64,000 nucleotides of DNA from NCBI GenBank assembly GCA_032358255.1, contig JAULBX010012652.1, positions 37,787 to 101,786 on the forward strand, read 5' to 3'. Under the pieces are notes generated by a model. It saw only the letters and a list, made by a program, of their open reading frames with translations, was not told where the DNA came from and searched no databases. A program made the translations under genes and the position numbers. The stretch is from Heterotrichella gracilis (lineage: Eukaryota; Sar; Xanthophyceae; Tribonematales; Xanthonemataceae). Of this stretch, positions 3,157-61,700 are shown piece after piece. Positions within the stretch are counted from its first letter, which is position 1, and each line of letters opens with the position of its first letter.

Positions 3157-6100
3157 TCATGCGTTTGCTGCTGCCAATGCTGGCTGCAGAGCCGCCAGCG
3201 ATATGAGCAGCGCCTCTTCTGTGCGTATGGTGCGGCTGCCCTGGGACGGGCAGGTGTTGATGTACATCTGGAAAAGGTCTTTGGGGTGTGTGGAGGCGGT
3301 GGATTGGTCAAACGAGGCCAGCTCCTCCAATCCCTGGGGACCTCCAAAGGCAATGAGAGCATGTCGAAAATTTGGAAGTTTGAATTCAGAGCCTGCAACG
3401 AAGAATTTTACAATTAAAAAAAGTACCAAACAATTTTGAAGGAGGAGATACAGTGCACATGTGCCTAGTCCCATCCATTCTATTGTTGCACTGCTCTTCC
3501 TGCCTTTGTGCTCCACAATTAAGACTCACTCGATGATCGCTTACCCAAAATAGTGGGTGCACTATACTAACAAGCCACTGATAGTCAGACCTGCTGCACT
3601 GCAAGAAAATATTTAAACACAGCAGGTGATCCCTGAGGGTTGATTAAGCAATCCACTGCTTCGACACCCACAATACTGGCACGCCGACAAAGCATTGTTT
3701 TCATGTGTGTAAATATAGATAAATGCACACATACATTACACAGTCGTCAGTTCTGGGCCTAAATGGAGGGGCCCATGCAATTTGGGTACGTTCTGGGTGA
3801 CAGCACGGCTATAATATATTATATCTTATTATCCTTGTCGTCCATTCCCAGGACAGATTTGAAATTACAACTTCAACTTGAATTTGTACATTGTTTGTAT
3901 AAATTCCGCATAAATGGGAAAGGTGGTCATCACAAAATCAGTCAAATGCTTAATCAGTCAAAATGTGTCCAACTGTCTGCATCAACCATGGTTTGCAGTT
4001 TTGTCCCATTCCATTGCACTCACCAACCACTTGCTGCCCATGCTCCGACGTCCCTAGCGCCAAATCATAGCCTTCTTGGTAGGGGCACTCCTTTAACAAA
4101 GCCCCCAAGCCGTTTGCGATGCGGGTGGTGTACCCCCAATACAGACCCCCATGCTGGCGGGGAGCAAATGGAGATGCCACCGAGCCTGGGGCAGGAAAGT
4201 CAGATCAGAGTCACAGGTTAGGTGTCAGAATGTCAAGATTATGGTATCGACGGTGGATGCCACCGAGCCTAGTACACACCGAGTTCAAGCCGCCTGCGAC
4301 AAGGCTGCTGGCCAGGTTCAATCTGTAGCATATGAATTGACTTCTTAAAGTACAGACATATTGTACTTGCCAACACGTTTAGCGTGTCCCTTTCAAACAT
4401 CTTTGGCAAATACTTTTCAACTGATGAAAAAAATGGTCACATGTTGTAACTTTGCCTCAGTCAAATGAGTTTCAATTCCGTTTGAAACTCAACCAAACTT
4501 CAATTTGAAGTTGTTACAAATCACTTTAGTCATCCCAACCAGTACTTTGAAAAAGTTTGATCAGTTCCAAAACTATTGAACTTTTTTTTGGGAACCATGG
4601 ATATCAGAGGTTCCAAAGCTCTCCTCAACCATGGAAACTTGATCCCCAGAGGTTTCCCATCAAACCCACCAGAAAACACCATAGACCCATCTGGCGCGGT
4701 GCTTGTGGTTGCCGATGCTCCCATCTCCATTGTCACTCGAGTGCCCTCTGGAACATGCTGACGGGGCGCAAAAGCCTCCTTATCCAGCCCCACATTTGCA
4801 TAGGATCCTGCCAGAGAGGATCTGCAAAATAGAGGCACATTTGAGGGTTGAGCCCAAGGGTTGAGACCATGCTGACTATGTTTTAAGGCCGGTGTCCCGG
4901 TGGGAGGAATATGCACCACTGGTTCAGGTATCCCTATTTCTATTTATTTACCTGGGTTCCATGACTTTCGTCAAACCTTTCATGCTACCAGTTTTAAAAT
5001 GACCAGAAAGATGCAGGCATCTGAGTACATATTTCATGCAAATGATGAAGATACTCGACCACCCAGTAAATTTCGGCTTCAAAACCAGGTGAGCATGGCT
5101 TGCTTTGCCTCATCCCAGTCCAATACCCAGGCATTGGCTGGAGGAAGGGATATCTATTATTGTTTCCAGTGTGGGAGATGGGTAATAGATGGGTAGCCAG
5201 CCAATCGATACTTTCTTGGTGTCGATTATGTAGGACAGGTGCAAGGAAGGAACATGTGTGGTGTTGCAAACATGGCATTATCCTGTTACATTGTGGCCAC
5301 CCCATTCCAGTAGGGGCACCACTCATTTGCCCGTGCGTGATGCATTTCTTTGATAATTAAAATAAGAACGCAAACTGTAAACATGCCCCATTTTCTCACC
5401 TTGTGACCACGCCTTCCCTGTAGGGGCACCACTCATTTGCCCGCATGTGGTGGGGGGCGTCAAGAGGAGGCAGCTGGCCGGCGAACCGGAGGTCATCGTG
5501 CACTGGAATAAGCGCCCTGCGGCAAAACAAAAATATTGTGTTTAATGAGGGAAACAAAGAACATACCTGGAACTTAAATGAGAAATAGAAAAGGGACATA
5601 GAGTAAGTTAACAAACGATACACCAGATACGTTGCACAGTCACAATTTGGAATCTCGTCAAACACGCAAGGCAAATAAAATCTCCACCTAGGATCGCAGT
5701 TTCAAGGATAGCAACACATATCATAGGAAATCCTGCTGTCTCGCAGGTTCCAACGCGTCAGGGACACACTGCAGGAATATGCAAGAACGGACATCCCAGT
5801 GGGGATTCACTGCAATCCCGCTGCAACCCATTTGGGACTCGCCCTTAGGTACATGGACATGTTCCGCTGTTTTGCTTGAGCAGAGCAATAAAATCTTGTA
5901 AATCTTGTATATGAAAATGAAATTCGAGTATGGTATATTAAAGACCTTTTTGTACACCTTCTGAGATATTGCGGGGTCTCCATGAACTGTAATATCCGAG
6001 CAAGGATGGCGGTGCCCCGAGAAATGGTACCGACGTCATCTGGCGTGTCATTCACCACTATCACTTCGTCGATGTTGAATATGGCAGCTGTGCGCGCAAT

Positions 6101-7280
6101 CTGCAGACAGAGAGGGTGTTAAAGCCATTCTCCGCCTGGCGATCGCCTAGGGCATAATCTTTAACAATGTGCGCTTAAATGTGTGGCTACACAACGTAGA
6201 GGCCACTGGATCTGGATGGTGATGGTAGTGCTGTTGGCGACAAAGATGGCAGTGGTGGTAGTGGTAACAATGTCGGTGTGGCGATGGCGTTTGTGGCAAT
6301 GGTGACTTGGGTGCAGCAAGTACCATATCTGCCACAGCCTTTGCACAGTCTTAGGTTATACCCACCACCACAAGGACAATCAACCCACTACAGCATGGAG
6401 GTCTACAAGTAAGCGGATGCACCTCCACCCTGGGGTAAAACGAAGCAGCGCTGATGGTTGCTATGGTCGTGGCCACGATGGTGGTTTCAGTTGCTGCACG
6501 TACCATTCCCGCCACAGCTGTAGCCAGCTCCATGCTCTGCGTGTTTTCTATTACCGACCCTGGAAGGGCGATGGACACAGTGGGAGGCCCCTGCCACCTA
6601 CACACAAGCACACACAAAATACACATTATATTTTAACACTATTCCGTTTTATTGCTTCAGTGTCAAAGGACTGCAGCTTTTGAACCCCACCCCGTTCAGC
6701 GCCACGCTTTGCACATGACGTCAGTGTTCACTAGCCATGGGCAACTTCTATAATTGCAGTGCAGTTAACAAGCGGCTAAGGGGGTTATCAAAGCAGTAAC
6801 AAAGAAAGCTTGCGATATACTGTGAATGTGGGAGCTGGAGGAGTAGTTGCAATTTAGACTGATTGACAACAGCACACTCTTGATTTAACATCATTTGGAA
6901 AAAGCTAGCTAGTTGTAGGACTTGCATGCTTCTACTTGTCGGCTTGTGTAAAGGTAGCAGGAGTTGCAACTTGGAGTGCTGCTGGATGGGCTCCAAGCAC
7001 GCCATTTATTGGAACCCAGCTGAACCACAACGACGCAAATGCTTGTCGAAGTTTGAATACTGTGTTTGAGAGGCGAGTCTGCAAGAAAGCGTGGCCGTCC
7101 AGATGCATGCATGCATATGCCATGGCAAGCCCATGCCCAAGGCAACCCGGATGGAAACGCGGGCTTAGGCATGGCAGCCTGCAAAACTTCACGTAGTGCA
7201 TTCTCTCACCCTGGTGTGGCCACAGTGACATAAGCGGAGGCGCGCCCCTGCTGTGGAGGCGCAGCGCCCACCACCGCCAT
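3157..7280 (-). CDS. SPOUT1: SPOUT1-type RNA methyltransferase (C9orf114/CENP-32 family)
   Basis: Seven exons read 7280-7210, 6597-6504, 6100-5958, 5516-5400, 4821-4670, 4185-4024 and 3392-3157, giving 975 nt or 324 residues with phases agreeing at every junction. The family is an alpha/beta-knot (SPOUT) RNA methyltransferase; human SPOUT1 is slightly longer. Family motifs run in order: TVSIALPGSV, QSMELATAVAG, IDEVIVVND, ARILQFMETPQYLR, LDAPHHMR, YREGVV, GLYWGYTTRIA, YDLALGTSE, FRHALIAFGG and the C-terminal knot NTCPSQGSRTIRTEEAL. The last block is the cofactor-binding trefoil region. The first exon (MAVVGAAPP) is inferred from a start codon, a GTGAGA donor and matching phase; unlike animal proteins it lacks a long Lys-rich head. 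Two introns carry copies of adjacent exon ends (see findings). The next gene on this strand starts about 1 kb away, so it is independently transcribed. Confidence 0.9.
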
Positions 7281-8314
7281 TGATATAATACTTCGACAAG
7301 TACACACTAGTGAGGACTGCTAAGGTTACACAACAACGCAACACGTATCTCGCAGTTTGGAGTTAGGTGGTATTGCGGAGCACGCCTATAAATACGTGTG
7401 AATCAAGTGGATTGGGGTGCACAGGGGGGTATAGTACCCCGGGTCTATATAGGTGCACCGGTACCCCTTAGCTGGGCCCTAATCGACACGGGCAGTGCCA
7501 TACACCCTAGAAAAGCGAAGTAAAAACCCTGGTATAGCAAAGCATCGTGTGAAATGAAGGTTGGGTTGGACCACTTCTTTCCTGGTGTTGCACGCTTGCC
7601 CCCCTGCATGCCTCCACAGTGCACATTCTACCTGTTTGCATACCTGGACCTGCCAAGGTCTGGGACCGCAAGGACCCCTGACAGGAGAGTCTCCACTGCG
7701 GACCCTGCACCCAAAACAAGCGATTGTGCACAGGTCTGCACCACGACACGATGCCCACATGCTGCAGCACCAAAGCATAGTTTTGTGATGCTTAGAAGCG
7801 CTGCATGTTTTACTTTTGCTCCACCACCACTGCGGTCTATGGTGGGCTAGTGAGCCACAAACTTAATGTCACATGGCCTGAGTCAATTCCAGGCTTGCAA
7901 ATGTTGGCTCGCAGCTTGGGGATGCACACCAGACATGGCCATTATCAACGCTGGAAAATACCTACTCCCTTGTACGGGTTGTACCCAGGATAGTATGAAG
8001 GTCATATATGGATATCTATTAAAATGTGTTGCTTTGCAACACTTAGATATGTAGCAGCTTTGTGTCACCGTCATGGGTCACAACCGCAAAGTTGGAAGGC
8101 ACAGGATGCAAACTGAACTGCCCAAGTGCATATAGGGACATCTGCAATGAACGCGCAACAAAAATAATATGTTCAGTACTGCAACATACACCCTAGAACA
8201 CCTGCAAAGTAAATGCAAAGATAAGGTGAATAAGGGTACTTTCAGGGCATAACACAGCTGCAAGTGTGCAACCAGATTCGGAACAGACAAGGTAGCAACG
8301 TGTACTGGCTGCAT
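7281..8314. other. Intergenic stretch (7281-8314)
   Basis: This holds the upstream region of the SPOUT1-type gene and the 3' flank of the armadillo gene, both on the minus strand. No further exon is recognised. The open frames here (for example around 7480-7850 on both strands) have no domain content. Confidence 0.35.
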
Positions 8315-11086
8315 CTAGCGCATCAGGAGACCTTGATTAGAGACCCAGTCGCTTATATACTTGTCCAGGACAGATATCTCCTGTGGGCTACCAATGCGCC
8401 AACCTTGGCGATGGGCCACTGCCACGAGTCCCAGCATCGCACCACTGCCTTTGCTGAAAATGGCATTGTAGCGGTGGTTACTTCCAATGCAAATGAGGCA
8501 GAGCGCGGCGGCCACCACTGCTTGCATTTCCAATGAGGCTGCACTCTTTCCAGCCGGTATGGCAAGCAGGCGCAATAGCGGCGGGACAACACCGGCAGCA
8601 ACCAAGGCCTCGCGGCATGCATTGGCAACCCCGGAGGTACCGGAAGACCCCTCCATAGCAAGGCTACATATCACAAAAGCTGCTATCATCTGCTTGTTTA
8701 CCATGTCCTCCTCTGATGAATGGCTGCCCAAAGCACGTACAAGTTGTTGAAGGATCCCGGGGGCTGTAACCACGACTGCACGGTGGCCTTCCACCCCAGT
8801 ATGTACAACCCTGCCTGATATACACAGCCCAAAAAGGAATAAACTTAATCAAACAAGCGGCTGAAGAATGAATCCGGGTAAACCCATTTGTATGCAAGAA
8901 AAAACAATTTTGTTCATCGTGACACAGGAATGAACGCACGGCAGTCAATAGACAGACAGATTGAAAGTACAAATGGACTTCATGATGGTCCATGTAAATA
9001 AATAAAAGGAGAGTAATATATACAGGGAAATTGGAGACAGCACAATGAATCCGATCATTAATGAATATTTTAGAAATCATGCAGCCATTCTTAAATTGCA
9101 CAAAGAGGCGGGCATTGCCCCTGTGGTCCAACAAATTTTCCCCTATCTGAAACCATCACTTCCAATAACAATAATCCACCAGCGCTTGTTGGGCATTCTT
9201 GTACGTATATATCCAAGGGCCAACCTCCAAGCGTCACCAGCGCCCCGGCAGCTATCACCGCATCAACATGCCGCCCGATGTCATCGCCCATCGCCAGATT
9301 GCTCAGTACCCCTGCAGTTTATTTATAAACACAGATGCTTACATGCAACAAAGAAAATGATATGCTTCCTTGCCATGGCCATCTAAACTAGCAGGTGTAG
9401 TAGATTAGTTCTGGTAGTACATGACCTGAGGAGTTAGTCATCCAGCACAACTGACAACAAACTAATACAAACTAGATGCAGAGCCTACTATCCATACCTG
9501 GGATCCCACTGCACTGCGCCGCACTGCAGGCGTGCAGCAGCTTGAGCAAGAAAATCCTTTGAGGGTTGACCCACTATGACAGTATGTGTATACAGCCTTG
9601 CCTGTATGGTAGCCGTATATACAGCATTTATATTTTAATGCTGTTTTAAATATATATAAAACAAGCCTTTTTTCAAAGATATATTGTTGTCCTCTCATTG
9701 AATGGAGAAGGGGGGGGTGTATGAGGTACAATACTGCCATACCACCATACCAGCCCAAGAGAATAGGGGGGGGGGGTAAAGGCACCATACCCCCATATCA
9801 CCATACAGCCTTATGAACATGTGGGGGGTACCTAAGGCACCATACCGCCATACCGCCATATCAGCCTCGAAAACTTGAACCCTAAAACCTAAAACCCTAA
9901 AACTTAAAACCCTAAACCGTAACCCTAAACCCTAAACCCTAAATCGAAACCCTAACAGGCACTTGACATGGGTGTCTTACAGGCACTGTATGGCTGTATA
10001 GCTGTATGGTGCCTAGGACCCCACCCCCCCATGTGGGGCTGGCATGATGCCTTCCCCCCCACTCCCATCCCCCCTACCCCTACCATACAGCCCTACTACC
10101 ATACTGATTTCAAACATGAAGATCAAAAGGGGGGAGGTGCAAGGCACCATACTGCCATATCACCATACTAGCTCCCCATGCCAGTATGGCACGCCAACAA
10201 ATATATTGAGTAACCGTATGGAAGCACACTGGCATACTGGATAAATACTGGGTACTTTTGATTTAAATACTGCCTCATTACCAGCTACCCTGTATACACC
10301 TACTGCTATACTGGGCCATTTGTCAATCCTTTGCATCACAAGGGGATCCCTCGAGTTTATGGCACAACCAATTAATAATCAGGCATCAAGTGCCTCAGGC
10401 ACTAAAGAACAGATAATGACTACCAATCGTTTAAACGCATGTTTATGATTACCAAGTGAACTAAGTGATGCGAGCAAGGGAAATAATAGTAGCCCATGGA
10501 CATGTGCCCTGACTTACCAGAATCTGAGACTGATAAGCTGAAAACGATACACAGCGCCAGTAATGAACTGCTTGGCACTGGATGTGCAAAGGTGACTGCA
10601 AGTCTGGATGTGATGTTAACATAACAGGCAGGCATATAACCAATCAACTTATAGGCAACTAATGCACCTTACCTGCAAGCTGGTATGCCGACAATCCAGG
10701 TATCCCTTTCTCGCTGCTGGTCATCACTTTCACGAGGTGCTCAGGCACTCCTTTGGCGACCATGGCACCAGCAGCCTTGGCCTTCCACTTGCCGGGTGCA
10801 CAGAGACCTGCCGCAACAGCAATGATGCCAAGCCTTGCTATGAATCCATTGGGCTCCCCAGCTCCCGTACGCAAATCTACATCATAAATGGAATATATAA
10901 GAATAAATTAAAGATAAAGGATGTATATTTCTATAGAAACATCATTCTGAAATAAAACTAAAAGTGGAATCTACAGAACTATATAAACTGCACCTGTATC
11001 TCCTCGGCTTCCCACAGACGAGCTTCCCATTGCTCTGGCAGAGCCTACAGGGCCAGATACAGTTTGGCGCGGCTGAGGAATCCTTG
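8315..11086 (-). CDS. Armadillo-repeat protein, copy 1 (5' end unresolved)
   Basis: Phase-consistent exons read 11086-10994, 10876-10673, 10595-10518, 9311-9225 and 8814-8315 (stop TAG 8315-8317). The N-terminal exon is basic and Ser/Gly-rich, probably disordered. The rest is helical with armadillo-type repeats, for example LSNLAMGDD, HVDAVIAAGALVTL, ILQQLVRALGS, AAFVICSLAMEG and ALVAAGVVPPLLRLLA. Armadillo repeats make a superhelical protein-binding scaffold, so partner and location cannot be told. The donor at 9225 (GTTGGC) is weak and that junction is the least certain. An upstream exon with the start codon is probably missing, since the first exon needs one extra base. Some repeats resemble the armadillo gene at 40-43 kb (ALVAAGxxP), suggesting an older relationship. 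The 1.2-kb intron 9312-10517 contains the telomere-like tract. Confidence 0.7.
9700..10330. repeat. CCATA-rich low-complexity block flanking a telomere-like core
   Basis: Lying in an intron of the first armadillo gene, this block repeats variants of 'ACCATACxxCCATA' on the left (about 9725-9868) and mostly the complementary TATGG forms on the right (from about 9985), with G- and C-runs. The phrase AAGGCACCATAC on the left and GTATGGTGCCTAGG on the right are inverted relative to each other across the telomere-like core at 9878-9956. It looks like an inserted or rearranged non-coding block. Confidence 0.7.
9878..9956 (+). repeat. Degenerate interstitial telomere-like tract (CCCTAAA)n
   Basis: About 79 bp of imperfect CCCTAAA/CCCTAAAA units, at least eight recognisable, with interruptions such as CCGTAA and ATCGAAA. 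CCCTAAA is the plant and Chlorella-type telomere unit. Here it lies inside an intron, far from any chromosome end that can be seen. Such tracts are usually left by telomerase-mediated break repair or fusion; that origin is inference. Confidence 0.85.
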
Positions 11087-12905
11087 CTGTAAAGGTTGTT
11101 GTCAGACTCCTGCTGGAACTGTCAGCTTTATCAACATCTATGTATATTGTTGAATACCAGCTTGCAGGTGAGGTGATAGGGCAGCAGAAGTGGTTGGGGG
11201 GGACAGCCGGCTGCAGGCACCAAGGGATGGGAACGGTCAGCAAAGTACCAACAGTCAAACACATTGTATATGCAACAACAATACTGTCAGTCCTGGTCCT
11301 CCTGTGAAGTCACAGGAAAGAAAAGGACTGTGACACTTAAGCTGTGCCAGCTGCGTGCAGCACATTGATGCAATATCATATTGCATCAATTGAATATGTG
11401 GTCAAAATAACCTATATGCAAACTAAAACAGCTAGCTAGCTAGCTACAATAATTTTAACACTCAAGCTTGGCTCATTGGTGACAATATCACTGCATAAAA
11501 TCTTTTAGGGTGATCGAGGTACAGGTGGAGGGAAGTGACAAGTGAATAACTCATTGTTTTGTGAAATTAATAGCATTGTCGGTACCATAATGCCTACAGC
11601 GCTGTCGGTACCATATGCCCTAGCTAGCAACAACCGAAGTTAACGAACAGGGATAAAAACAACGGTTCGTCTGTGTAGAGATATCTCTATGTGCGCACCC
11701 CAGATGCCGAGTTCCCCATTGTGGACAGTGAGGTGTGGCAAATTATTTCGTCTGCACCTTGCCAGAGTCCAGACCAGAGGACGATAGTAACTGAGTAATT
11801 GATATATTTTTCGCACAATTTTCAGAGTTCGACCAGATTTCCTGTGACAAAAACAAGGCTTTCCAGACTTTAAGACACATCAACGTTTTTTTCTCGAGGT
11901 TGTCGCACCGAGCTCGTCGGCACCACTGGGCACGAGGTGTCGCTCCCGGCGTTTCGCAAGTGGCACAACAGATGATGCCACGCACAGCTATTTGCAAGTG
12001 GATATCGATTTGTTGAAAGAAATGCATTTTGCCCATATCTTCTGTATGACGCTTTGCATTGAGGTCTTGTGAAGCTTGTGAAACATGGCAGTTACAAAGT
12101 ACAAGTGCCATCATGGCCAACATTAAGTTAATGTTGGCGCTGCTGGAGTGCTCCCATGCATGGCCAGCCTATTTGGTTTGCTACCACCATCTCCGTGCCC
12201 TTGATCTGGTCGGACCTAGATATCTTTATTCCATTTGTGTTGTGACTTCAGGTGGGTATTGGCAATCACATCTCTGACTATGTGGGAACAAGCTGGGAAC
12301 GTGTCAATTGGCATGTAAAGAATATGCAATACCTGCAAGTAAACCAATCCGTTGTTGCAGCCATTGCAATTAACCTGGACTTTTTACGCAACATATGATC
12401 TGAAGCATCAGCTTAACGTCCCTTGATCCTGAAACTCATTAAAAAAGAGATGCCCTGTAATTACTATTACCCATGGTTGCAATCGCCTGGCATGCTGGAA
12501 AGTGTACTGCCCATGCATGTCTGCGCAATTTGCTCTGCACCCCTGTGGCAATTGCTGCAGCAGTTCCTCATTTGGAAGGTGCATTATAATATACTTGACA
12601 AGATGCATTATAATATCCTTGATTCTGGTCCGCTCGAATAAATGAGTTTATATTTCTTTTTAAATAGCACATGCCGTGTTTTGCTAGAATTGCATATTCT
12701 CATATCTGTTTGTCCAGGACCATTCAAAATGTAGATGACGAGGGAAAAAAAATGTGTCTCACTAGACTTTTATCTGACGACTACAAAAGGACATCACCCC
12801 AACTTGAAATCATTGACAGGGTGATCATGACAGGCATATATACACAGTATTTGCAAATTAGTATCGGCTACAATATTGTTGTATGTGACCTGAGGAAGTA
12901 GATTG
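11087..12905. other. Stretch between two minus-strand genes (11087-12905)
   Basis: It should include the missing 5' exon(s) of the armadillo gene and the 3' flank of the SGNH gene. A 126-codon minus-strand frame (12123-11743) has no recognisable domain and I do not call it a gene. A (GCTA)n run lies near 11431-11446. Confidence 0.3.
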
Positions 12906-15900
12906 TTACTGAGCAAAGGACCCCAGCCTGTGTCTGCTGGCCACAAAATGATCACGGCGATCACATAGACCATCCAGCTCAACCTTGAGCAGCAGCGTGA
13001 AATCGAGTTGTATGGAGATAACATCAAACCAGTCATCAAAATGAATACCATCGCCTGTGGTGTTCATAGTTGGGTTGCACTTTGTGAGCTCGTTCAGGGG
13101 CACGATAGGCGCTCCTGGCCAGCCCTTGCGCCCGTTCTTGTGGCTTGAACCCAGCTCCCTCCACAGCACCTCATTCAGCTCATCAATTCCTTCATTGGTG
13201 ATGGGCTTGTTGTACGGCTTTATAAATAGCCAAGGGTGCGTGTACGTGGTGTCGTGGAACACCCAGCGAGGTGCCGGCTTCAGCTGTTGGGAAAGTTGCA
13301 CCAAGTATTGCTTCAAGAACTGCAGCTGCGCGGCATAGCTGGGTGGCCTGGGGAAGATTACATTGAATAAATAAGTTAGGTTTTATTCTGAAACCTTTAT
13401 TTCAAGAGAAAAGGACAGGAGATAGCAAGGAGTTGGATACTGCTCTCGTGCCAGGGCCAAATGCAAACAAGCTGCGCAAATAATGTCAAGTTACCAATTG
13501 TTTTTCATAATTACTATCTCATTTTTTTAAATTCTATTTATTTGTATTTCTAGTCGACAGTGCTCAACATTTTCACCAGCAGTTGAACTCAACACACAAC
13601 GCGAGATACCCAAATAATTATTTAATGACATGGTTCCTTTTGAAGTTATACACTATGATGTTGCATTTATTAGAACCCCGGTAAACCCCATTACATTAGC
13701 TGGGCCTGAAGGCAATAAGACGATGACGGCTGGGAGTGCCTTTCTGTTTGTTTTTTGTAAATCCCAATTGTAGCTAGGCCCCGCTTATTTGGGACCTGTG
13801 CAATGTCCCCTGCCTACTGTGTCCCCTACCTAGGGAAGATGGTACTGTACTGGCAGGCGGCCTGGTGCAAGCCGCTGGTCATGACCACCCCAGTTGGGGG
13901 TATCTCAGGGAACGTGTACTGGATGAGCTCCGTGATAACGTCAACGTACAGCCGGCGGAAGGCCCACGACATGCAGAAAGCAACCCGTCCTCCCTCCTTG
14001 GCACCTTGAAAGACCAGGGACACCCCCTTGGACACCTGGTCACCCGCCACCTCGTCAAACAGGGTGTACCTGCAACGGCAGCAAAATGAATTGTTGTGAG
14101 TGGCTTGGGTGGCGGCATATCTGGGAACGTATCCTAATGGAATCTACATGCTAAATTCTATCATACATGTGTGAATATATTACTTTATCCTGATAGGTTA
14201 CACTGCAACCCCAGAGCACCTAGAGCACCACTAGAGAATTGAGCCCCCTCGCAACTCTGCATACGTGACCCTGGCCAGAGCATGGACCTATTCCATCTGG
14301 CCCTGTACAACGCGCAGGGTATGAGAGTATCAGAATGTCTCTGCCTGGTGCTTACGCGACCGGATAGACTGTAACATGTTGGGAGTGCTGAATAACAATG
14401 CAGTGGTAGTACGTAACCTACTACCTGACTCGTCACCATACCAGCAGGAGTCCATGGTGGAGGTGTCATTGCAGCACATGAGGCGTGTGTTGTGCGGCTT
14501 GTACCACCGCCCCCCCCGCAGCCCCTCGCGCCGCATCCACTCCACCCCCTTGAGGATGCTGATGCCCCGCTCAAACCCAGCACGGCCCGAGGAGTCTGTG
14601 ATCCATGCATACCAGGTGCTCCGCCCATGACGCTCCACTATATTCTGCATGTTGCAAGAGGGGCTGAGGGTTTACAACTGGCGGGCTTACGTTTTAGGAC
14701 ATGCAACTTAGGGTTTAGAAATTAAAGGTGTTTTGGTGGGAGGTGTGCAACCCCATTCCATTTCTAGCCAAATTACAGCACGGCAGTAGTGATTGACACT
14801 GCCATTAAAAAGCCTTGCCTGGCACCTGGATACACAGCACATGACACATTTGGACTATCAGGCTTGTTGATAATGAACATGTAAACAAATCAGTACGTTG
14901 CATTTGTTATCAGCAATCCCACGCGTGACAGGCCCGTGGCAGCCCTTACCAAGCACACATGATCATAGTGTCAAGTATGCGAATCAAGACACATTCCCTG
15001 CACGGTGTGATTGTGGTATTCCATCAGAGATGCTGGGCTTGACCTAAACCGTTATATATTACTGCTGCATGTATGTTGAGACTCAAAGCCATCATGTGGC
15101 TGGCAGTTTCACAGCAATGACTCACTTGCAGTATGCCCGGCTTGTTGAGGTTGAGCATGCCAGGGCAGCTCTTGGTGCCTGACAGGGTGTCGGTGGTGTA
15201 AAGGGAGGCTATCCGGCAAGGGAGGCAGTCTGGACAAGAGAAGAAGGAAGTAAGCCGGGTGGGTATCAGGAGGGGAGGACGAGGGAAGAGAAAAGGCAAG
15301 GAGGAGGGGAAGGGACAAAGGGATAAACACGGGGAGAGGGGGAGAAGCCAAGAGGTGTGGGGGAATTAAAGGGGACAGGGGGAAGACAATTTCATGCATG
15401 CTTATTCTTACCAGGAGGACATGGGAAAGCTAAGGGCCAGACAAGCAGGCATGTTCACGTTGGGACACACAGCACTTCAGAGGCGGTATCAGACATGCCA
15501 AAACAGAGCTAAATGAAACGCACTGTGCAAGAGACGCCTGCTCATCTGGCTGCACGGCCAGATTATTTGAGGCTAGCAACCTCCAGACAGTGTTTATAGG
15601 CCATGGCGTGACAGTGGCATGCCATCTCTGTGTTCTAATGAAGCCTAATAGTGGTAAATCAGAGGTGCTATAATACAGTTTTGAGCAAATAGAACACCTT
15701 CACCACTGTGCCCGCAAAGCAGTGCTCGGCATAAAATGGCCCCCCTGTAACGGATGTTGGTAGTTACATGTACCTGTGGTCTACCCAGCATGCAACTCTA
15801 GGTGTGCATACCTTTTCTGGAATGATTAACTGGCGAAAGCGCAGCTTGACATGCCTCCTGAAATGCAAACGCACTTTGTGAGTAGCCAGTAAAAAAAACC

Positions 15901-22193: not shown

Positions 22194-22649
22194 TGGGCAT
22201 CGCCTGGGTCTTTGGGGGGAGGGGGACTGGGCAGCTGCGGGACACCGATCGGATGGGGGTAGTTGCAGAAATGAGTCCCAACACATTGGCGGGGAAGGTG
22301 GGGGAGGAGGCTGCGTGCTGGGCAGTGTGGGGGAGGCTCAAGGTGCCAACGGGCTGGGTGTGGTGGTGGTGTGGGGAGCGGGCGATTGCGAGCGGTGGTA
22401 CAAGGCAAAAGCTTGCGGCATGGAGTTGGGGAATGCGCATGTTGGGGAGGGCTGGCTGAGGGGAAACGCAGCACGGTTGGTTCGTTGATAGGCGAGTTGG
22501 CATTGAGGAGGGCATTTGGAGGGGGGGAAGGGCAACACTGGCAATGAACCAATTCCAGTCGGCTTTCATTCAATACAATTTGTGTAAGACTGGATACCAG
22601 GGCCAGTAAGCTGAACAAGTGTTGACCTGCAACCCGACTGAATGTACCG

Positions 22650-22678
22650 CGTTGTGGTATTACGGTAATACCACAACG
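22650..22678. repeat. Perfect hairpin, 14-bp arms
   Basis: Arms CGTTGTGGTATTAC and its exact complement flank a single G. It lies about 460 nt after the cpSRP54 stop. It could be part of an RNA 3' end or the footprint of a small inverted-repeat element; similar TATTACGG words recur nearby at about 22781 and 22999. Confidence 0.8.
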
Positions 22679-23507
22679 GTTTTGTGGCATGGCCTGTGCA
22701 TCGCCCACGTTCAACTTGACAAGGGGTGTGAGATCTAACTTTGCCCACCTGTAACATCACTGTGACCTGTGCCACTTGTATTACGGTACTACATCTGATA
22801 CGGCCATTGTGACAAGACCTTGAAAAGCTCTTGGCAATGCAATGCAATGCGCTCTCAGCGTGTGAGCTGGCTCTGCCAGGGTGACTGAATGACGCCGGTT
22901 GCAGAAACTAGTGGCGTGTAGGGTATGAGGCATGGCATGCCTGGGGGGTTTAAACTAAATAAATGCTGCACGTTTCCAATTGGCTACCCCAGCACGGTAT
23001 TACGCCAATCCGATTGGGATTGAGGATGCACCCCCACATGTAATTTTGAAATGGGCGCCATGATTCATCAGTGATCAGATCCAATCATCGCATGCATGCC
23101 CCACATGCTCGCGCGTCCGACTGGGCCAGTAGCGACGCCGTTCACTACTACAACGCCAACTATTGGCGTGACGCCAACCGATCGCAATGCCATGCATGTA
23201 GTATCAGTAAATACATTTGGATACTGTAAATTAGTAACAAGACTGCGTTTGATTGTACTACCAGAGTCTGGACGGGTTGAGTCCCTGTCACTGTGCAGCG
23301 ATTTCGTACGTACGGTACGGTATCTAAGCTACAGGTGTGTGTGCTGTGATTTGAAATCGGTTGGGCGAACTTCTGGGCCAGTTTTCCAGGTCCTGGAGCA
23401 CTGGCAGTGGCGTCGCCGACAAGGTATCACTTCAGCAGCTTAGGGTTGCCAACGGATCGCCTTGGGTACGTTGGGCCAATTGGGCCAATTGGGTACGTTG
23501 GGCCAAC

Positions 23508-51180: not shown

Positions 51181-53210
51181 TGTACAGTGTACAGTGTACC
51201 AACGTTGGGATGGTGATGCCATTGAGCCTTTTCATGCTGGTATTTGAGATATAGGCCACCATAAAATGCCATGCATAAACAATTGTGTCCAATACCAACG
51301 TGGACGTGCTCATTGGTGATGACATCACTGACTGGTGACCATCCCGACTTCAGACGCTCAGCCCAAGGCTTGAGGTTAGCCGCTGTAGTATCGCTGGGGG
51401 CAATCACGTACGCACGCGATTAAATCAAGTTTCACGCACACACTTCAGTTTCAATTTTACTGAAGAATGCAGCACCGAGTGTTCATTACTATTCGCATTG
51501 TGGCCTCGGCATGCATCTACACTCTGAGGCGGCGCCAATGGGCAACTATCAGAACCCGTAAATCAATGGGTGCTGCTTCCCACAGGCAGTTTGACCCTGG
51601 GAGGGCTCGTAGTGACACTTTTATGCTCCCATCCTGCTTCCACACAGACCTTGCTGCTGCTGCTGTTGGTTTTTCCACCATATTTTCTCATGTCTCTAGT
51701 TTGAGACTTATTCACCCACTTCTGTCTTTGATGGACTCTATGTCTGTTGATATCTGATATGACAGACAGTCTCCAGTATGCGAGACTTATTTACTCACTA
51801 TACTGTTCATGACATTGTGGACGTTGAGTCCCAATGTCTCTAGGGGCACACAGGGCAATAAGCCGATGACGGCTTGGAACGCCTTTTGGTTGTTTGTTTG
51901 TTTGTAAATCAATTACTTTGCAATCGGATTGCAGCATGGATCTGCGCAAGTCACCTGTCCTGGTGCTCCAAAATCTAGCAGTATAGCCTTGTTCTCTGGG
52001 GGAGACTCCCCACAGAATGGGCAATATGTGCACCACACGTGTTTACTGTAACACATCGCTGCAGCGTTTGTCTAATTGAAGCTAGGTTACGCTGTGCTGT
52101 ATACCAGCTACACCCACTTGTGAGCCCGGCATATACATGTTCCATAGTGATTCTCATCTATCTCAGCCCACCACAAAGGCCGGTGTGCAGCTGTGCACTG
52201 CAAGGCAACCCCCGTGTGCAACGCTGCACGCATTTGACATCATCCATGCTTAATGCAATGGTCTTGCATTGCCCGCAATCTCCAATTTTATCATGGTTTT
52301 GGATTCAACCATGCGCTGGGGAATTTGATTAGTTTGAGGCGATTCTGGAGGACTGTAGTATGCACGCTGTGCAGCCATGGCTGGCAACTTCTTTTGGGTG
52401 CAAGGGTGCTGCCGCCTTTGCCATGCATGATCAAGGCCGCCTTGGGGCCCATTCGGGATGCTCCTATGATAGGACTTACATGTAGCTGTGAATGACACTT
52501 GCTACACTTGCTGGCTGGCTGTTCAAGCCTTGTGTCGCTTCGAGGTGATAGCATGGCACTGCTGCTGTAATAGCAGCTGTATGGCAAATAATTTGCCAGT
52601 ATAAGTGTTCGGACCAGGCGTGTCAAGGAGGAGCTGGTGCAGCAGGGGATCATCCAGGTCATGGTCCTGCTGACTGCTACTGCGCCAAGAGCGGGAGGAT
52701 GTGCGGCAGATTTCCATTTGGATTATGTGGATCATGCAGCGGCTGGCCAGAGGCACAAAGCAACGCTGGGATGCAGTCCGCAGTTCAATTGCGGAGGCAT
52801 CTGGGAGCAGGTTGCAAAGGACTTCTTTTTCAAAAGAAGGCTGGGACAACAAGGTACATACTGATCATTGATTACGTACTGTTCCAAAACTTTATGCTAT
52901 ATCACGTTGGAACTATTTACAAGATTTTACAAGATTTTATTTGACAGTCACATTCAGGGAGCCAACCCGGGGTCACAAGACTGTTGGGGGGGGGGACTAT
53001 TCTTTTACCACAAATATTTTTTTCCCATTGCAAATACTTACAATTAAAGCAACAAAAAGGTTGTTGACTGTGACCAACCCAGGTATGGTATTTTGTGCAC
53101 ACTTATAAGCAGTAATTGCCGATCTGTTCGTCTCTCACGAAACCAACCCCTTGGCAGTCCCTGGTTGCCAAACTTTATACTGGTCGTTGCACTTTGAACC
53201 TTTGCAGTCC
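51181..53210 (+). pseudogene. Decayed duplicate of the armadillo gene at 40-43 kb
   Basis: Blocks matching the intact gene appear in the same order. 51199-51250 matches about 40942-40988 (GTTGGGATGGTGATG). 51477-51560 matches 41075-41150. 51915-51985 matches 41228-41290 (CTGCGCAAGTCA, then CCTGTCCTGGTGCTCC). 52075-52330 matches 41650-41880. 52375-52500 matches 41945-42050 (GCAACTTCTTTTGGGTGC). 52600-52855 matches 42110-42336, including AGGACTTCTTTTTC. 53105-53205 matches the 3' flank at 43120-43235. Frames are broken by many indels and stops. The counterpart of the last coding exon (42644-42907) is missing, since only about 240 nt separate blocks that are about 780 nt apart in the intact gene. 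A LINE tail sits inside at 51811-51905. The duplication therefore covered at least 2.2 kb, including 3' flank, and is old. Confidence 0.85.
51811..51905 (+). mobile_element. LINE 3'-tail fragment inserted in the decayed armadillo copy
   Basis: Begins GACATTGTGGACGTTGAGTC, then GGGGCACACAGGGCAATAAG, a perfect AAGCCGATGACGGCTT stem-loop, GGAACGCCTTTTG and a (TTTG)n tail. Armadillo-like sequence resumes directly after it at about 51915, so it inserted after the duplication. Confidence 0.85.
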
Positions 53211-54692: not shown

Positions 54693-57600
54693 ATGTCTCT
54701 GACCCTCTCCGCCCTGACCACAAAGGGTTCCTCCCCGGGAGGCCACATGGATAACCCCCTTGCAAGCCCAACAGCCTCCGCAACAGCAGTCTTTGATTTC
54801 TGGAAAGGTAAGAGTGTTCGGGGCCGAGGTTTGCTTTTTTTGCACATATTGCATGGGGTTGAGGAAGGCAAGGATAGCTACTTTCAACTGATTATTGGGG
54901 GTCATGAACTGCCCTATACCTGGTACCTGGCTACTCTCAATTTGGTACCTAAAATGCGTGCTTTGATAGGGTGGATAACTCCCTTCTCGACATTTCATGC
55001 AGAATTTGACTTGGAGAGCTACCGCATCAAGCTGGATGAGGCGGGCATGGAGATAGCACAGAACCAGGAGGGGAGCGTGAAGAACAGGCGCAGGCTGGCG
55101 GACAGCACAAAAGGTGGGAACCACGGCAAGCGCCTAGCAAACCCCTACGATGCCCTACTTATGCGATACCCAAGCAACGCACTGCCAAAAAACCAGCCAA
55201 GGGAAAGATTTACTTTGGCAGACAGCATTTCAAGCAGCAAACTATAGCAGTCTAGAAAAAAATAGTCCCTGGCATCTTGTGACTTGGGGGATGAAGAGGC
55301 GATTACCTCCAAAGATACACCCTGGTCTCAGCCAATGTTTCCCTGTTTCCAGAGTTCAAGCGCGGTGCGGGGGCGGATGTGTCACGGGAGGTGGCCCCGC
55401 TGCTCAAGGCCTACCAGGAGGAAGTGGACAGGCTGACGGCGAGGTGCGGGGGGGTGGGGGCTTGGGACCTGCACAATCAAACATAAGTCCCTACTCTAGT
55501 ACATACCTCTAACAGCAAAGTCATGCAGTCCGACTCATACAGTATGACTATAGTCAGTGTGCAGTGACATCCTAAACCCGCTGCTTGAGCTGTAGCACGA
55601 GGAGGTGGGCAGGCTGACGGGGAAACCCTTAACACTTCTTCTTAAACCCTAACCGCATCTTGGCATTGCCGAGCCCAACTCTGATTCCCGGATTTTTGTT
55701 GCTCGCGCAGGGCTAAGTTCAGCGAAAGTGCGTTCCTTGACCTGTACCAGCGCCTTTACGAGGCCCCCGACCCCACTCCTGCGCTCACATCCGCACTGGT
55801 AAGGGTGTGGGGTTCTGGGAACCCTTTCGTGACCTGGTCCTGGTGGCTATGTTGAAATCGCAATCTTGTGAAGCTTCCCCAGTTATTGTCCAGTGAACTA
55901 CTCTGCCAAATGTCACTTAATGTTTGCATATCATTTACCATCTGTCTGCCCGGTTATTACCCTGGTATTACCCTCGGTATTGCCATTGGGATGGTCATCA
56001 CTGAAATTCCCCGCCAAATGCGTTGGGGTCTCTGGTTGTTTGCCAAGAAAGTCAGTGTAGTTGATTTATTTGTTCACTTGTTTTGTTTCTCCAGGAATCT
56101 GCGTCTCGCTCCGCTGGGCTTGAGGCTGAGGTGCGTCGCGTGTCCGCTGAACTGGCGGAGTACCAGAGCGAGAGCAAAACCCTAGTCAACCAGGAACTGA
56201 CCCTAAGGGGGCTGCAGGACAGGGTGCGCACGCTGGAGGCGGCGCTGGAGGAGAAGGTGGGTGAAAGGAAACGCGCAAGTGAGCGGCCATGATTTTCCAT
56301 GCATGGAGATGTGACACATGTGTCTGGAGGACTAATATATATATCCATGCACCCGCAAATGTGTGCACGGTGGAGGAATGCTCCACCCTTGTCCAGGCGC
56401 ACAATGCACAGCAGCAGCATGGGTTCCGCTCATGTGCACACACACACATTTGTATACAGGTATGGGAAAAGGTTGCAATTGCTGCAATCACATATCACAA
56501 TCACAGTCATCGCAGTCGGAGCTGAACCCATGCATGCGTGCAGGAGCGCACCCTTGTGGAGGCGCAAGCTGCCGCCGCTGCCGCTGAGAGCGAGCGGGCA
56601 ATGGTTGAGCTGCAGGAGCGGGAGGGGGAGCTGGCGGCGCAGCTGGCGGCGGCTCAGGCAAGTGCACGGGCATGGAAGTGTGGGGGTAGCTAGGGTTGCA
56701 ATGGGTGCGACAATCCCAAGATCTGTAGCTGGAGGGAGTTACCATGCTTGTCGGCATGAGCTGCGTGAATGGAAGCGCCTAGCAAGTGGGGATAGTTCAG
56801 GCAAGAGCGCGCATGTTGTGACCCCCAACCCCTACATCATGAAACCTCTCTTGTGTGGCACTCAAAAACTCTAAACTTGGGAACCCTGTAAGTGCAGGCG
56901 TCCCTCCAGGCCCTGCAGCGCGCGCACCACGCGGGTCAGAGCCAGCTGTTCTCGTGGCAGGAGAAGACAGAGGAGGAGCAGGTGTGCCCATACTACGCTT
57001 ATTAGATGAGACATTTGTGCAGGAGGGAAATCAATCCTCTGATCATAAATCATGATGCGCATGTGATGTGGAGACAGGCCTGGGCTGTTATGAGAGTGCT
57101 GTAAGTGTACCTGGGTTGTGTACCTGTAATTTTCCTTTTGCCACGCCCCGCCTTTGCAGGCCACCATGCGTGCTGCCCTGGAGATCGCAGGTGCGGATCT
57201 GGACAGGGCACAGTCTAGGCTGGCGGCACTGGAGGCAGAAAAGGTGTCATTGGTGGCACAGGTGAATGCCCCCTCATATGCATTAGTCGTTGTGTGGGGC
57301 TCCTATGGTGTGCTCTTTTGTCACACCGCTCATACTGTATCACATTTATACCCTGTTTGATCATTTTATAACCCATTTGCTGTATTGTGAGTTTCTGCTG
57401 CATTCTTTGCCACCCTGCTCCTTTCCTACCCCACTCTTTCCCTTTCCACAGTTGGAGGGCGGAGGTGGGCCAGGGGGTGCTAAGGAAGGGAGGGAGGGGG
57501 AGGCAGAGCTGCGCAGTGAGCTGTCATCAGCACGCGAGCTGGCATCAAAGCTGCGAGCAGAGGTGAAAACCGTCAAAACCCTGGGCAAGACCCCCCACCT

Positions 57601-60600
57601 TAAATATTCTCCGCAGAAACATTGCATAGGATTGAAAACCCCAAACAAAACCCTTGACGCTGTGCGCTGCGTTGCCAAGCTGCTCGTGACATGCGAGCAG
57701 AAAGAAAATAGCACGAATCCAAGGCAACCGAGTTTACATAGTGCAACGTCTGTTTGTCATCCGCATCCCCAGTGCCAATCATGGACCCCATTGAAGTCTC
57801 TGTGCTTGAGAGGCTTGCCCACGCGCGCCCTTTAGTTCGACATTTGACCAAAATACAAACGGAATATGTTGTAATTTGGCAACCGTTCCCGTGTTTCAGG
57901 TCCGCTCCCTGGTTGAGCGCCTTGACCACGAGCGAGCCTCCTGCGAGTCGCGTGTGAGTGCGGCCAGGGGGGCGCTGGAGGCGCAGGAGGTCAGGTGCAG
58001 GGCGCTGGAGGCGGAGCTGGCGGCAAGGCCCACCGCAAAACAGGTAAGGGGTGGAAATAGTGGTAGTAGTTACAAGTTGCACATGTCCAGGGTTTAATTG
58101 TGGTGGTTCTGGTCACATGGCTTGCCCTAGTTTAACAGTGTTGGTCAGAGAACGGGTGTTGAAGCACAATGGGTCCGGTGCGCTACGGGCACAGCTGGTG
58201 GCACGCCCCAGCGCAATACAGGCGTTGAGGGGAGGCGGTAATTGAGTTGACACACACCGGAAAATTCCCATTACAGCCGGTTGTCTCATGATGTGGATGC
58301 CGATTCGTGTGCACCTGCAAGATGCAAACGCTCCAAGGATGGGGTGGGGTGGGACATTGGCTTGTTTGAGAAACGATAGCAGACAGCTGATCGGCAATGC
58401 CCTCAATTGAGATCATATTGGTGACAAGTGCATGTGTGTGTCTCCCCAGATGGACGAGCTCCGGCAGCAGATCCGTGTGCTCCAGGCGGTGGGGGGGTAC
58501 GAGCAAGGGGGGGAGGGAGATGAGACAGGAGGGGAGGGTACGAGCACACATGGCTGAGCACACGTGGCGCCAGCAAAATGCCCGATTCCTCTTGGTTCGA
58601 ATTTGGTTAAAATTTGTTAAATCTGTTCCCTGTGAAGTATATTATAATATTGAAGTGTCACTTGCAATTCGGCACGTCTGCATAATGCTGCTTTTAAAGG
58701 AGTTTGTGCATCGTGCTAACTGCAGGCGCCACAAATCTTCAGGATACGCCATTTGAAATAAGAATGACGCATTCCAACGCATTGCCCAAAGGCTGCTCAG
58801 GCACAATGGAGTTGAGCTCGCCATTGCCTAAAATAGCAAATGCCACTCCATTAGGAGCCCTGCTCTTACATTACATTAAGGAAGGATGGCTCCAGTGTGT
58901 GCCCCTCCCCATGTCCTTTGTTTTCCCGCACCGCAGACCCCCTCCCCTCCCCCAAGGACGGCGTGTCCTCCCTTGAGGCCATGCTGCTGGACCGGAACAG
59001 GCACACGGAGCACGAGCTCACGGTGGCAAGGCTGGCGGCAGCGGCGGCGCAGGGTAGGGTAGTGGATAGGGTACTGCTATGATTGTTGTTGGGTTGGGCG
59101 GATTCCAAGTGGCGTGGTGCCGGTGGTGGCAAAGCTGTCAGGGATGCTTGCTAGGGTTAATGCACATGGAGTGAGGAACCCTACAGATAAATCCTCCAAC
59201 CCTGACCCTCAAATCTTAGCCTTAGAAACCCTAGACGTAAGACCCATGCTGCGCACAGGTGATGCCGAAGCAGCCACTTCCCGAGTCGCTGAGCTGGAGT
59301 CTGAGGTGGCGCGGCAGCGTGAGCTTATTGGCCGGCTGGAGGAGGATCTGGCTTTGGCTGAAGGGGGGGGTGGGGGCGGGGGAGAGGGCGTGCCAGGCAC
59401 ACCGGGCGAGTCGCCGGAAGTCCAAGGTGGGTTTGGCGTCGCCATGGTCAATTTTTGAGCAATTTTTGGTTGTATGCTTTCGGGAAACATGCTTTTGTGG
59501 GTGTGGAAGGTGGTTTGATGGGGTCTGGCTGTGATTGCCAGGGAGGAGGGGAGAGCGGGGTGGTGGGGTGGCTCGCCATGGCCAGGCGCAAATCATGTTG
59601 GATAATATACAACAAATGTAGTAAGGCGACAGAAAGTGTATTGCTCTGCTCACTCTGTCTCACTGCGCCTCGACTGTTGTATCCCCAGGCGGCGAGTCTG
59701 AGGGCGACGGCCGCACCATGGTTGCCGTGCTGTGCTCGCAGCGTGACCGCTTCAGGGCGCGTGTGAGGGAGCTGGAGGAGGACCTGGCAGCGCTGGGGGG
59801 GGCGGTGCAGCAGGTGCGCTGGGGATAGTTCCATGCATATTGTAGAGCTCATCGCTTTCACGGTTGGTTTCTGGGTTATTGGGTTGAATCCAGGATATTT
59901 TCAGGTGCGATCAAGAGTTTTTAGCTGGGTCTTGGGCAAACATTTATTCGTGACATGTGAGTGTAGCTGCAAGAAGACGACTTGGTGTGGTAGGGGGGGG
60001 CGGTGCACTGCTGAAATCCGCCCTACACATAGCCCCTAAACTAAATTTGAAACAAATACTTGCATGTGCGCACGCAATAGGGTGCAACTTCTTTCCTACC
60101 TCTTTCCTTTCTTTTTTTGAATTCGAAACCACGAGGGTGATGGTAGAGTGTGACAGGCATGGGGAGTCTGCACAAGGTACAGAATATTGGGAACCCGCGT
60201 AAAGCCCCTTTGTATCTTAGCATCCCCACTATCCCTACTCATTTCAATTTACAGCCGTATTTCCCAATCTGCACAGGCTCGCAAGGAGGCGCAGGCTGCC
60301 CGCCAGGACAACGTGGCGCTGGTGGAGCGGCTGAGGTTTGTGACGTCGTACCAAGCCAAAGGTGGGGAGAAGCGGGAAACAGCTATCAAAATGTGACATC
60401 ACAGAGATATGTTCATTGTGTGCAGAGGAGGGAGTGCTCCACCCCCTCTCAGTCGCCTTGCCACAGAAGTGACAAGTTGAGGGCATTTTGGTTGCTCACA
60501 AGCAGATTGACTCCGGGCTGTTGTGTATTGCGCGTGCAGGCGGGGAGGTGGATGCTGAGCTGGGCACCGCAGAGCGCAAGTACCAGAAGGAGTATGAAGA

Positions 60601-61182
60601 TAAGGTACGGGAGGTGCAGGAATGCACAGGGAGGGACATGCATAATACTGCAAAGTACAATTTTAATTGTGAAGTACCGCCCCTTTTATTTCGTCGAAAC
60701 TACCAGCAGTTGAACAAAAGCCCTGGGTATGTGCCATACTACAATAGCTATAGCCACAATTTCTTGCGCTGCGAGGCAAAATTTCGCATGTATTGCTTTG
60801 CTGTTACATTTTAACCCTGGTTTACGGTAAAAACAAAACTGGCGTATAGCTTTACTGGAAATATACAGAAAAATGTCCCACGTGTGCACAGGTGAATCCC
60901 TTCTCAGACTTCCGCACCCGCGAGCGCGAAGCCCGCCGCAAATCCATGGGCGTTGCGGACCGAGCCATGTACGCCCTGGAGAGGGTCATCTCCCGCTCGC
61001 AGCTGGCGCGCACACTCGTGTTCTTCTACTCCCTCTCGCTGCATTTGCTCATTTTTGCCCTGCTGGCCAAGTACAGCGCCAGGGGGAGCGAGCGGCTGCA
61101 CGCAGAGGCGCTGTGCCAGCACATGGGGGGCTCCCACCTTGAATCTGCTTTTGGGGCTGGCAACGGGACAGTGGACTACTAG
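54693..61182 (+). CDS. CASP: Golgi coiled-coil protein CASP (CUX1-derived family)
   Basis: Seventeen exons join in phase to 686 residues, the usual CASP length: 54693-54807, 55003-55113, 55353-55443, 55711-55798, 56095-56256, 56544-56657, 56898-56981, 57160-57261, 57452-57562, 57900-58043, 58450-58537, 58937-59053, 59259-59426, 59689-59813, 60277-60361, 60540-60604 and 60892-61182 (TAG). CASP is a tail-anchored Golgi golgin involved in intra-Golgi retrograde transport and tethering. Motifs in order: AVFDFWK, EVAPLLKAYQEEVDRL, SAFLDLYQRLYEAPDPTPAL, a long coiled coil, LEAMLLDRNRHTEHEL, LCSQRDRFRARVRELEEDL, PFSDFRTREREARRK and a C-terminal membrane anchor ARTLVFFYSLSLHLLIFALL. The middle is rich in Ala, Glu and Gly and poorly conserved, as usual. 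Intron 6 uses a GC donor (GCAAGT at 56658). Three degenerate exon copies lie in introns 3 and 10 and after the stop. Confidence 0.95.
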
Positions 61183-61700
61183 GCATATGCTTTAGGTAGA
61201 ATCTGGCATACATTAATTTCTGAATCAGGCATGAATCAGTGACATTTCGCCCACCTGGCAAAGTACAGTGCTAGTGGGGCAGGCGGTTGTATGCAGGGGT
61301 GCGAGCGCAGCTGCGTCACCTAGAATATTACAATCATAGTAAGACTGTGAATGCACCGTTCTTCCATCATGATGGACAAACATTTACTTGATCAGTTTGA
61401 TCAAGAGTTACCATTACAGGTGTAGCAATGCCATGGCATGCAAGTTATCGGATCGAATCGGATTTTTTGCAAGAAATATTCTCTCGATTTAGATCAGCTT
61501 CCACTGAAGCGGCTTCATGAAGGTATTCTTTAAAGAAAAGGAATGCACAAATTGTTATTGAATGTTGGACGGCAGTGTTAGGCCCCCCTGGGCCAGGTCA
61601 CCTTGGGCCACGCCTTGGCACATGGCAACAATTTGAAGTTGCATTAAATATATATTGCTTGTGAAGGCTGTGGAATCCATACGTACTGCGAAGTACTTGC

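Follow-up and report, generated by a model that had tools for sequence, protein, structure and literature searches.

Do the degenerate copies of exon ends that lie in introns and flanks of several genes of the xanthophyte Heterotrichella gracilis exceed what chance would produce, and if so, which process makes them? The question is raised by a 64-kb stretch of a contig-level draft assembly (GCA_032358255.1, 68.5 Mb in 903 contigs), namely positions 37,787 to 101,786 of contig JAULBX010012652.1, hereafter called the window. A sequence-only reading of the window had described such copies, termed exon echoes, in six genes and had proposed a genome-wide process such as local template switching or repair slippage as their source. 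According to the analysis presented here, the echoes are probably repair scars (at a probability of roughly 0.58), formed at staggered breaks by telomerase extension and by fill-in before end-joining, with a duplication of 25-160 bp around a telomeric insert.

In the window, an ungapped and unfiltered scan of all diagonals (scoring +5/-4) gave 66.7 direct segments with scores of at least 100 per 1000 offsets at distances of 25-100 bp, 80 at 100-200 bp, 26.7 at 200-350 bp, and 20 at 350-500 bp, compared with 0.5 at 2000-6000 bp and 0 at 15000-17000 bp. Inverted segments of this score (8, with spans of 25-1000) were fewer than direct ones (22), yet above the far-offset level, and were mostly short-span hairpins. 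The direct segments include a minisatellite at 9701-10168 and low-complexity stretches. A filtered set was therefore defined by masking telomere words before the pair search on both sides alike, so that the copies are not telomere aligned to telomere, by dropping low complexity and internal periodicity, and by retaining non-redundant pairs with offsets below 400 and scores of at least 90. It comprises 14 pairs in the window, two of which derive from the minisatellite. The chance expectation for 375 offsets, taken from distances of 2-6 kb, is about 0.2 pairs at scores of at least 100, 0.75 at 90, 3 at 80, and 15 at 70. The excess of local direct repeats over chance is clear, and the density claimed for the echoes was confirmed; the outcome named in advance as speaking against them, exon-against-own-intron scores no higher than random, was not seen, near-offset segments far outnumbering far-offset ones.

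For the genome at large, 25 stretches of 10 kb were sampled (positions 20001-30000 of contigs picked by number only). One of them lies on the 894-kb contig C1, which has a G+C content of 36% and, by eye, Bacteroidota-like genes, and thus represents a contaminant or companion bacterium; it was left out of the rates, leaving 24 nuclear stretches (240 kb, one position per contig). Pair counts rest on the diagonal scan because self-BLAST dropped near-diagonal matches. For this purpose the window was divided every 10 kb, and pairs spanning a cut drop out of the filtered list. The nuclear stretches contain 224 filtered pairs, four times the density of the window, and 23 of the 24 hold at least one. 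Over all 314 kb (25 stretches plus window) there are 239 non-redundant pairs, one of them in the bacterial contig; at scores of at least 100 their numbers per 50-bp offset bin are 12 (30-50 bp), 42, 48, 44, 28, 13, 10, 6, 4, 1, 2, and 0, compared with 0.7 pairs per bin at control offsets of 2-4 kb. The offsets thus peak at 50-250 bp and reach background by about 450-550 bp. Separated inverted pairs within 400 bp are almost absent (1 versus 49 direct ones at scores of at least 120 over the 314 kb, in a BLAST count that undercounts short direct offsets and omits perfect-centre hairpins). Under the identical filter, E. coli K-12 yielded 4 pairs in 50 kb and the bacterial contig 1 in 10 kb. Copy identities range from about 50% to 100%, and the process is therefore both old and recent. 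In this respect the proposal of a genome-wide, continuing local duplication held.

What lies between the copies points to a source. The most over-represented 7-base word in 19 nuclear stretches (L003-L021) is AAACCCT, at 13.9 times expectation; ATGCATG and TGCATGC are 8-9 times over-represented in the same stretches. Contigs C70 and C140 end in CCCTAAA arrays, and the interstitial insert (CCCTAAA/TTTAGGG) matches this terminal unit. An exact 17-base telomere word occurs at 1206 + 1231 places, terminal arrays included, and the reversed word at 1 + 0. In 203 pairs, telomere words make up 12.8% of the sequence lying between the copies, compared with 3.6% upon random placement in the same stretch (maximum of 200 trials, 4.9%) and 4.6% after shifts of 400-1200 bp. 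Among 73 isolated pairs with spacers of at least 12 bases, 30 and 24 carry telomere words in the respective inner half, 10 and 15 in the outer 60 bp adjoining the copy, and 16 and 17 in the 60 bp beyond. Among the 43 pairs with an identity of at least 0.88, 39 have a spacer longer than 8 bases; 27 of these fresh spacers hold telomere words, compared with 27% expected at random places, and the other 12 hold different filler, whereas 4 of the 43 fresh pairs are almost devoid of filler.

The association was also approached from the telomere side. When 24 blocks were chosen by the exact telomere word only and their left flanks aligned to their right flanks, 8 exceeded the 95% level of 552 mismatched-flank controls (1.2 expected), 6 the 99% level, and 5 all controls; in the inverted comparison 1 of the 24 exceeded the 95% level. 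A larger set comprised 203 blocks, of which 2 lay too near an end for the flank test; the 201 testable ones (142 from the content-blind stretches, 14 from the window, and 45 from telomere-picked loci) showed direct flank repeats with scores of at least 100 in 81 cases, compared with shares of 0.8% for mismatched flanks and 10% for random places, and inverted ones in a single case. In 34 cases the copies abut the block (within 12 bases, score of at least 90), compared with 0.3 expected from mismatched flanks and 3.8 from random places. When restricted to the content-blind stretches, the counts are 63 flanked and 26 abutted among 142 blocks. The abutting set has medians of 57 bp for the duplicated stretch X (24-157 bp), 23 bp for the block, and 93 bp for the offset. 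Two clean cases illustrate the anatomy: at locus L044, copies at 474-500 and 525-551 (24 of 27 bases identical) enclose 24 bases of pure repeat at 501-524, and at locus L045, copies at 423-494 and 529-600 (67 of 72 identical) enclose a telomere block at 497-528. In this sample, the X-insert-X structure, the telomeric nature of the insert, the direct orientation of the copies, their limited offset, their spread, and their decay are matters of observation.

To account for this anatomy, we envisage a staggered break in or near a gene, in which two nicks on opposite strands would be separated by tens of base pairs to about 200 bp. In the majority of recent cases, a few TTTAGGG units would first be added to an exposed 3' end by telomerase; fill-in of the overhangs would double the stretch X between the nicks, and end-joining would seal the ends to give X - telomere repeat - X. 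In genes, the scars that survive would lie in introns or straddle exon edges, places at which the gene could remain functional through its one intact copy; the other copy and the telomeric insert would decay to a degenerate exon echo, and some scars would be duplicated again to form small arrays. An X-telomere-X structure free of telomere words within 20 nt outside the copies, as present in 17 of the 34 abutting cases, is the outcome expected of a telomerase-extended 3' end with filled-in overhangs. The genome encodes a telomerase RNA-binding domain as well as Ku domains. Local repair, as envisaged by the sequence-only reading, is the most likely cause; the telomere repeat between the copies, mostly decayed in the window, had been missed.

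A number of observations weigh against this interpretation. Without the five densest stretches, telomere words cover 5.3% of the spacers (92 pairs, a figure with no separate control), and without the six densest ones the block counts drop to 14 flanked and 5 abutted out of 57. Telomere words are absent between the copies in 94 of 191 pairs; because of these pairs, and of the fresh pairs with other filler, telomerase would be one of several routes. Of the 14 blocks in the window, 2 are flanked at scores of at least 100 and none is abutted at scores of at least 90, and in the 10 spacers assessed there the telomere remnants do not reach significance individually (p 0.06 to 0.83), for which reason the mechanism is carried over to the window from the rest of the genome. 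At three clean priming-side junctions, too few for a judgement, the telomerase register amounts to 0, 4, and 2 shared bases. The best Ku match has internal stops and the assembly includes bacterial contigs, which makes Ku less sure than the telomerase reverse transcriptase (TERT). Moreover, outer telomere words occur on the left in 12 and on the right in 11 of the 34 abutting cases, as a recombination model also predicts. Pairs that belong to the same array do not count as independent events, and we infer the insertion itself from one genome.

The recombination model reverses the order of events: telomere-like tracts would already be present and would promote duplication, the tract being copied together with its neighbour by slippage, template switching, or unequal exchange. 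Arrays of the form X-tel-X-tel-X exist (L005 8341-8530, L017 7672-8040), telomere words stand on both outer sides in 6 of the 34 abutting cases, and the numbers of pairs and blocks correlate over the 24 stretches (Spearman 0.69), all of which would follow from pre-existing tracts; the abutting cases free of outer telomere words would not, nor would the isolated pairs, which carry telomere words inside more often than outside. We regard this order of events as unlikely in general, although it accounts for the arrays and may apply to part of the cases.

Distinctly improbable is an ordinary small tandem duplication by break repair in which telomerase takes no part and telomere words are one filler or a bystander. 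Fill-in of 3' overhangs alone yields tandem duplications (PMC8355091), and both the many pairs devoid of telomere words and the fresh pairs with other filler or almost none agree with such a process. It leaves unaccounted for, however, that telomere words exceed random expectation in the fresh spacers and that they directly abut the copies.

A process that prefers exons, or a retention of the echoes as alternative exons, appears very improbable. The content of the copies was assessed with a leave-one-locus-out coding score, applied to copies of 30 to 150 bp, which assigned 0.24-0.35 to three exon stretches of the cpSRP54 gene and to one lipin exon, and 0.00 to an intron; two earlier coding models, the first of which gave copies equal to controls and the second more exon-like copies, were rejected as trained on largely chance open frames. 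Single copies are exon-like in 27% of cases compared with 19% of random segments of the same length; the share from the oldest to the freshest class is 22, 27, 35, and 27%, and it is 32% in pairs with and 22% in pairs without telomere words. An exon-like copy is present at 16 of the 34 abutting blocks. In view of these age classes, telomere-word pairs, and abutting blocks, some modest preference for exons or for genes may exist; selection keeping exonic pairs alignable is not supported as sole cause of the excess, the age classes showing no larger excess in old pairs. Set against this, either copy is exon-like in 37% of pairs compared with 34% expected, and in the 69 pairs that include an exon-like copy, codon positions 1, 2, and 3 account for 33, 28, and 39% of the differences, near the expectation for one free copy. 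The echoes are therefore in the main dead copies, with no general sign that both are translated, and coding constraint on both copies, as in duplicated mutually exclusive exons, was not seen over these 69 pairs. An open-frame test for insertion within exons showed no difference from its control, a weak result as the control was the best of six frames. AG|GT stands at the same column of both copies in 24 of 84 pairs, a count that has no control set. The emphasis on exons in the sequence-only reading is thus borne out in part at best, the process not being exon-specific; what persists of it is the modest and unexplained excess of exon-like single copies.

One case in favour of retention comes from the lipin gene on L017, in which positions 3-60 of the LNS2 profile are encoded by the exon at 6342-6521 and positions 61-104 by that at 7184-7315, and the end of the first of these exons recurs three times between them, together with telomere words. 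The echo at 6571-6637 has six coding differences from the exon, all synonymous by eye, and no acceptor AG upstream. With respect to the coding strand of exon-like pairs in the sample and the window, the insert reads CCCTAAA 32 times and TTTAGGG 16 times; TTTAG could serve as a false acceptor, and selection on insert orientation is possible, but nothing is built on this bias because an array contributes several pairs that are not independent of one another.

It is scarcely plausible that the scars stem from a mobile element or a family of introners that duplicates its target upon insertion. Introners, which reportedly create intron sequence repeatedly across a genome, resemble the present case in this repeated creation; they consist of a family sequence with short target duplications, whereas here a telomere repeat is inserted and the duplicated target is long. 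Direct repeats do flank the inserts, but by eye the listed inserts have only the telomere unit in common, and duplications of 24-157 bp lie far above the few bases usual for transposons. An artefact of assembly or haplotype merging, for which one might cite the fragmented draft, can practically be dismissed in view of the low counts in the bacterial contig of this assembly and in E. coli K-12 and of copies with every degree of identity. Regulatory telo-boxes were set aside as they do not account for flanking duplications.

The scars represent a form, dense and located in gene bodies, of an event known as a minority outcome: the insertion of telomere repeats at breaks with target duplication. 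In mammals, short interstitial telomeric sequences are inserted in the course of double-strand break repair, and some carry a direct target duplication attributed to staggered breaks and telomerase; such duplications concern 6 of 130 rodent, 4 of 25 primate, and 3 of 66 horse loci, two more in the horse showing mixed changes, and deletion is commonest (PMC2246262, PMC7215372). In H. gracilis, too, telomere units stand at internal positions and the target is in some cases directly duplicated, but the frequency differs, with the above share of flanked blocks and 142 blocks in 240 kb; the mammalian shares come from empty-site comparison and are not strictly comparable. Fill-in of 3' overhangs by CST-guided Pol alpha-primase generates small tandem duplications from overhangs down to 43 bases (PMC8355091). 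Here, too, a short stretch is doubled at what would be a staggered break, and a 43-base overhang is near many values of X; the difference is that, as far as the consulted part of that report goes, those duplications are described without a telomeric insert. CST is a telomere complex and would connect fill-in and telomeric insert. Combining telomerase insertion with overhang fill-in for this genome is our own suggestion. In plants, tandem duplications from paired nicks were reportedly obtained by Schiml and others in 2016, with offsets of tens to hundreds of base pairs; the offsets are similar, but the breaks were induced, and these duplications are not known to carry telomeric filler. Intron gain by tandem genomic duplication is said to have occurred in a potato RNA-dependent RNA polymerase gene, where exon segments were likewise doubled beside splice sites, whereas the copies here mostly decay. 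A search of titles and abstract openings in the open-licence literature found no description of such scars in an alga, and their density in gene bodies looks new, the baseline compared being bacterial DNA only.

In the two mammalian reports, the evidence on telomere insertion at internal breaks comprises about 220 loci with target duplication in a minority (PMC2246262, PMC7215372). In a genome with dense genic scars of all ages, break size, end processing, and telomerase priming would become readable statistically, and one could ask what confines telomerase to chromosome ends in other species and measure the input of repair scars to intron growth and false exons. More tentatively, telomerase may routinely take part in the repair of internal breaks in this alga, X-telomere-X scars being a leading source of new intron sequence and the introns largely consisting of telomere tracts and dead exon pieces, an idea that we consider somewhat doubtful; if true, there would be tens of thousands of scars per genome, as extrapolated from the 24 stretches of 10 kb. 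For annotation, the warning follows that gene models here may include decayed exon copies.

Within the window, the list of six genes was largely upheld, for cpSRP54, the SPOUT-type gene, the fucosyltransferase, and three CASP echoes, with the membrane-protein gene likely; the proposed SGNH echo (13893/14108) was lost, its score of 77 being at chance level, as was the first SPOUT-type echo, no pair scoring at least 90 and starting in 3157-5279 being present in the filtered list. The names fucosyltransferase, membrane protein, CASP, and SGNH are those of the sequence-only reading. The strongest pair belongs to cpSRP54, where PDB comparison aligns the exon at 20838 with GMGDVLTL, the conserved SRP54 linker; the best PDB match is 5l3r, and the protein is of chloroplast type. 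The reading frame of the upstream copy hits a stop and, if translated, would repeat a segment present once in SRP54. A second cpSRP54 echo, also claimed, is doubtful, and a further candidate pair at 21330/21407 scored 80 in the ungapped window scan.
20717-20810, plus strand: cpSRP54 echo (pseudo-exon) in the upstream intron with acceptor-like GCAG kept, 78% identical to 20838-20931, score 281.
20838-20931, plus strand: start of the true cpSRP54 exon, linker; PDB SRP54/Ffh matches cover query 6-68, with Pfam SRP_SPB further along the same exon.
21042-21067, no strand given: telomere-like block in TTTAGGG sense just after a cpSRP54 exon, its own flanks without direct repeat (score 57).
22103-22172, plus strand: doubtful second cpSRP54 pair, G-rich, with partner 22321-22390, 61% identical, score 107.

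The remaining echoes are listed below. The identity of the SPOUT-type methyltransferase gene is given by Pfam PF02598 on neighbouring exons, and two segments of the CASP-like gene that were searched gave no Pfam match. Because one cut of the window falls at 50000, the filtered list lacks the fucosyltransferase pair.
5280-5342, minus strand: SPOUT-type gene, copy one, 78% identical to 5390-5452, score 189.
5390-5452, minus strand: SPOUT-type gene, copy two, partner of 5280-5342.
6310-6344, minus strand: marginal copy in the SPOUT-type region, partner 6490-6524, 74%, score 94.
32453-32486, no strand given: likely exon-edge echo of the membrane-protein gene, partner 32560-32593, 76%, score 98.
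49692-49744, no strand given: confirmed echo in the fucosyltransferase region, partner 50027-50079, 68%, score 112.
55396-55442, plus strand: CASP-like exon piece, partner 55577-55623, 79%, score 145, confirmed.
55577-55623, plus strand: echo of the preceding piece, with CCTAAACCC before it and a telomere-like block (55623-55654) after it.
57994-58055, plus strand: CASP-like exon end with GTAAGG donor, 69% identical to 58172-58233, score 139, confirmed.
58172-58233, plus strand: downstream echo of 57994-58055.
59759-59809, plus strand: CASP-like exon end whose echo is partly low-complexity (G-run), partner 59957-60007, 67%, score 102.
61053-61086, plus strand: CASP-like copy, partner 61245-61278, 79%, score 107, confirmed.
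29325-29406, no strand given: left copy of a weak X-telomere-X structure, partner 29540-29621, 60%, score 113.
29499-29511, no strand given: telomere-like block between these two copies.

Other repeats were noted in the window. Self-complementary hairpins or palindromes, 75-100% matched, occur at 62011-62068, 43471-43587, 23505-23555, 18083-18147, 24709-24738, 22650-22678, and 11364-11390 and are possibly related in kind to miniature inverted-repeat transposable elements. The minisatellite has a 55-bp unit, occupies 9701-9866 and 10119-10168, and adjoins a degenerate telomere-like array at 9870-9955. An element of 800 bases is present in two copies (41650-42340 and 52079-52857, 71% identical), with shorter matches nearby. 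Finally, members of a dispersed family, about 40-100 bp long and ending in a TTTG-repeat tail, occur on both strands; they are about 72-93% identical and look like the 3' end of a short or long interspersed element.
TTTG-tail family members: 13709-13763, 23774-23816, 25529-25617 (minus strand), 31696-31760 (minus strand), 37147-37206, 37868-37968, 44027-44083, and 51811-51910.

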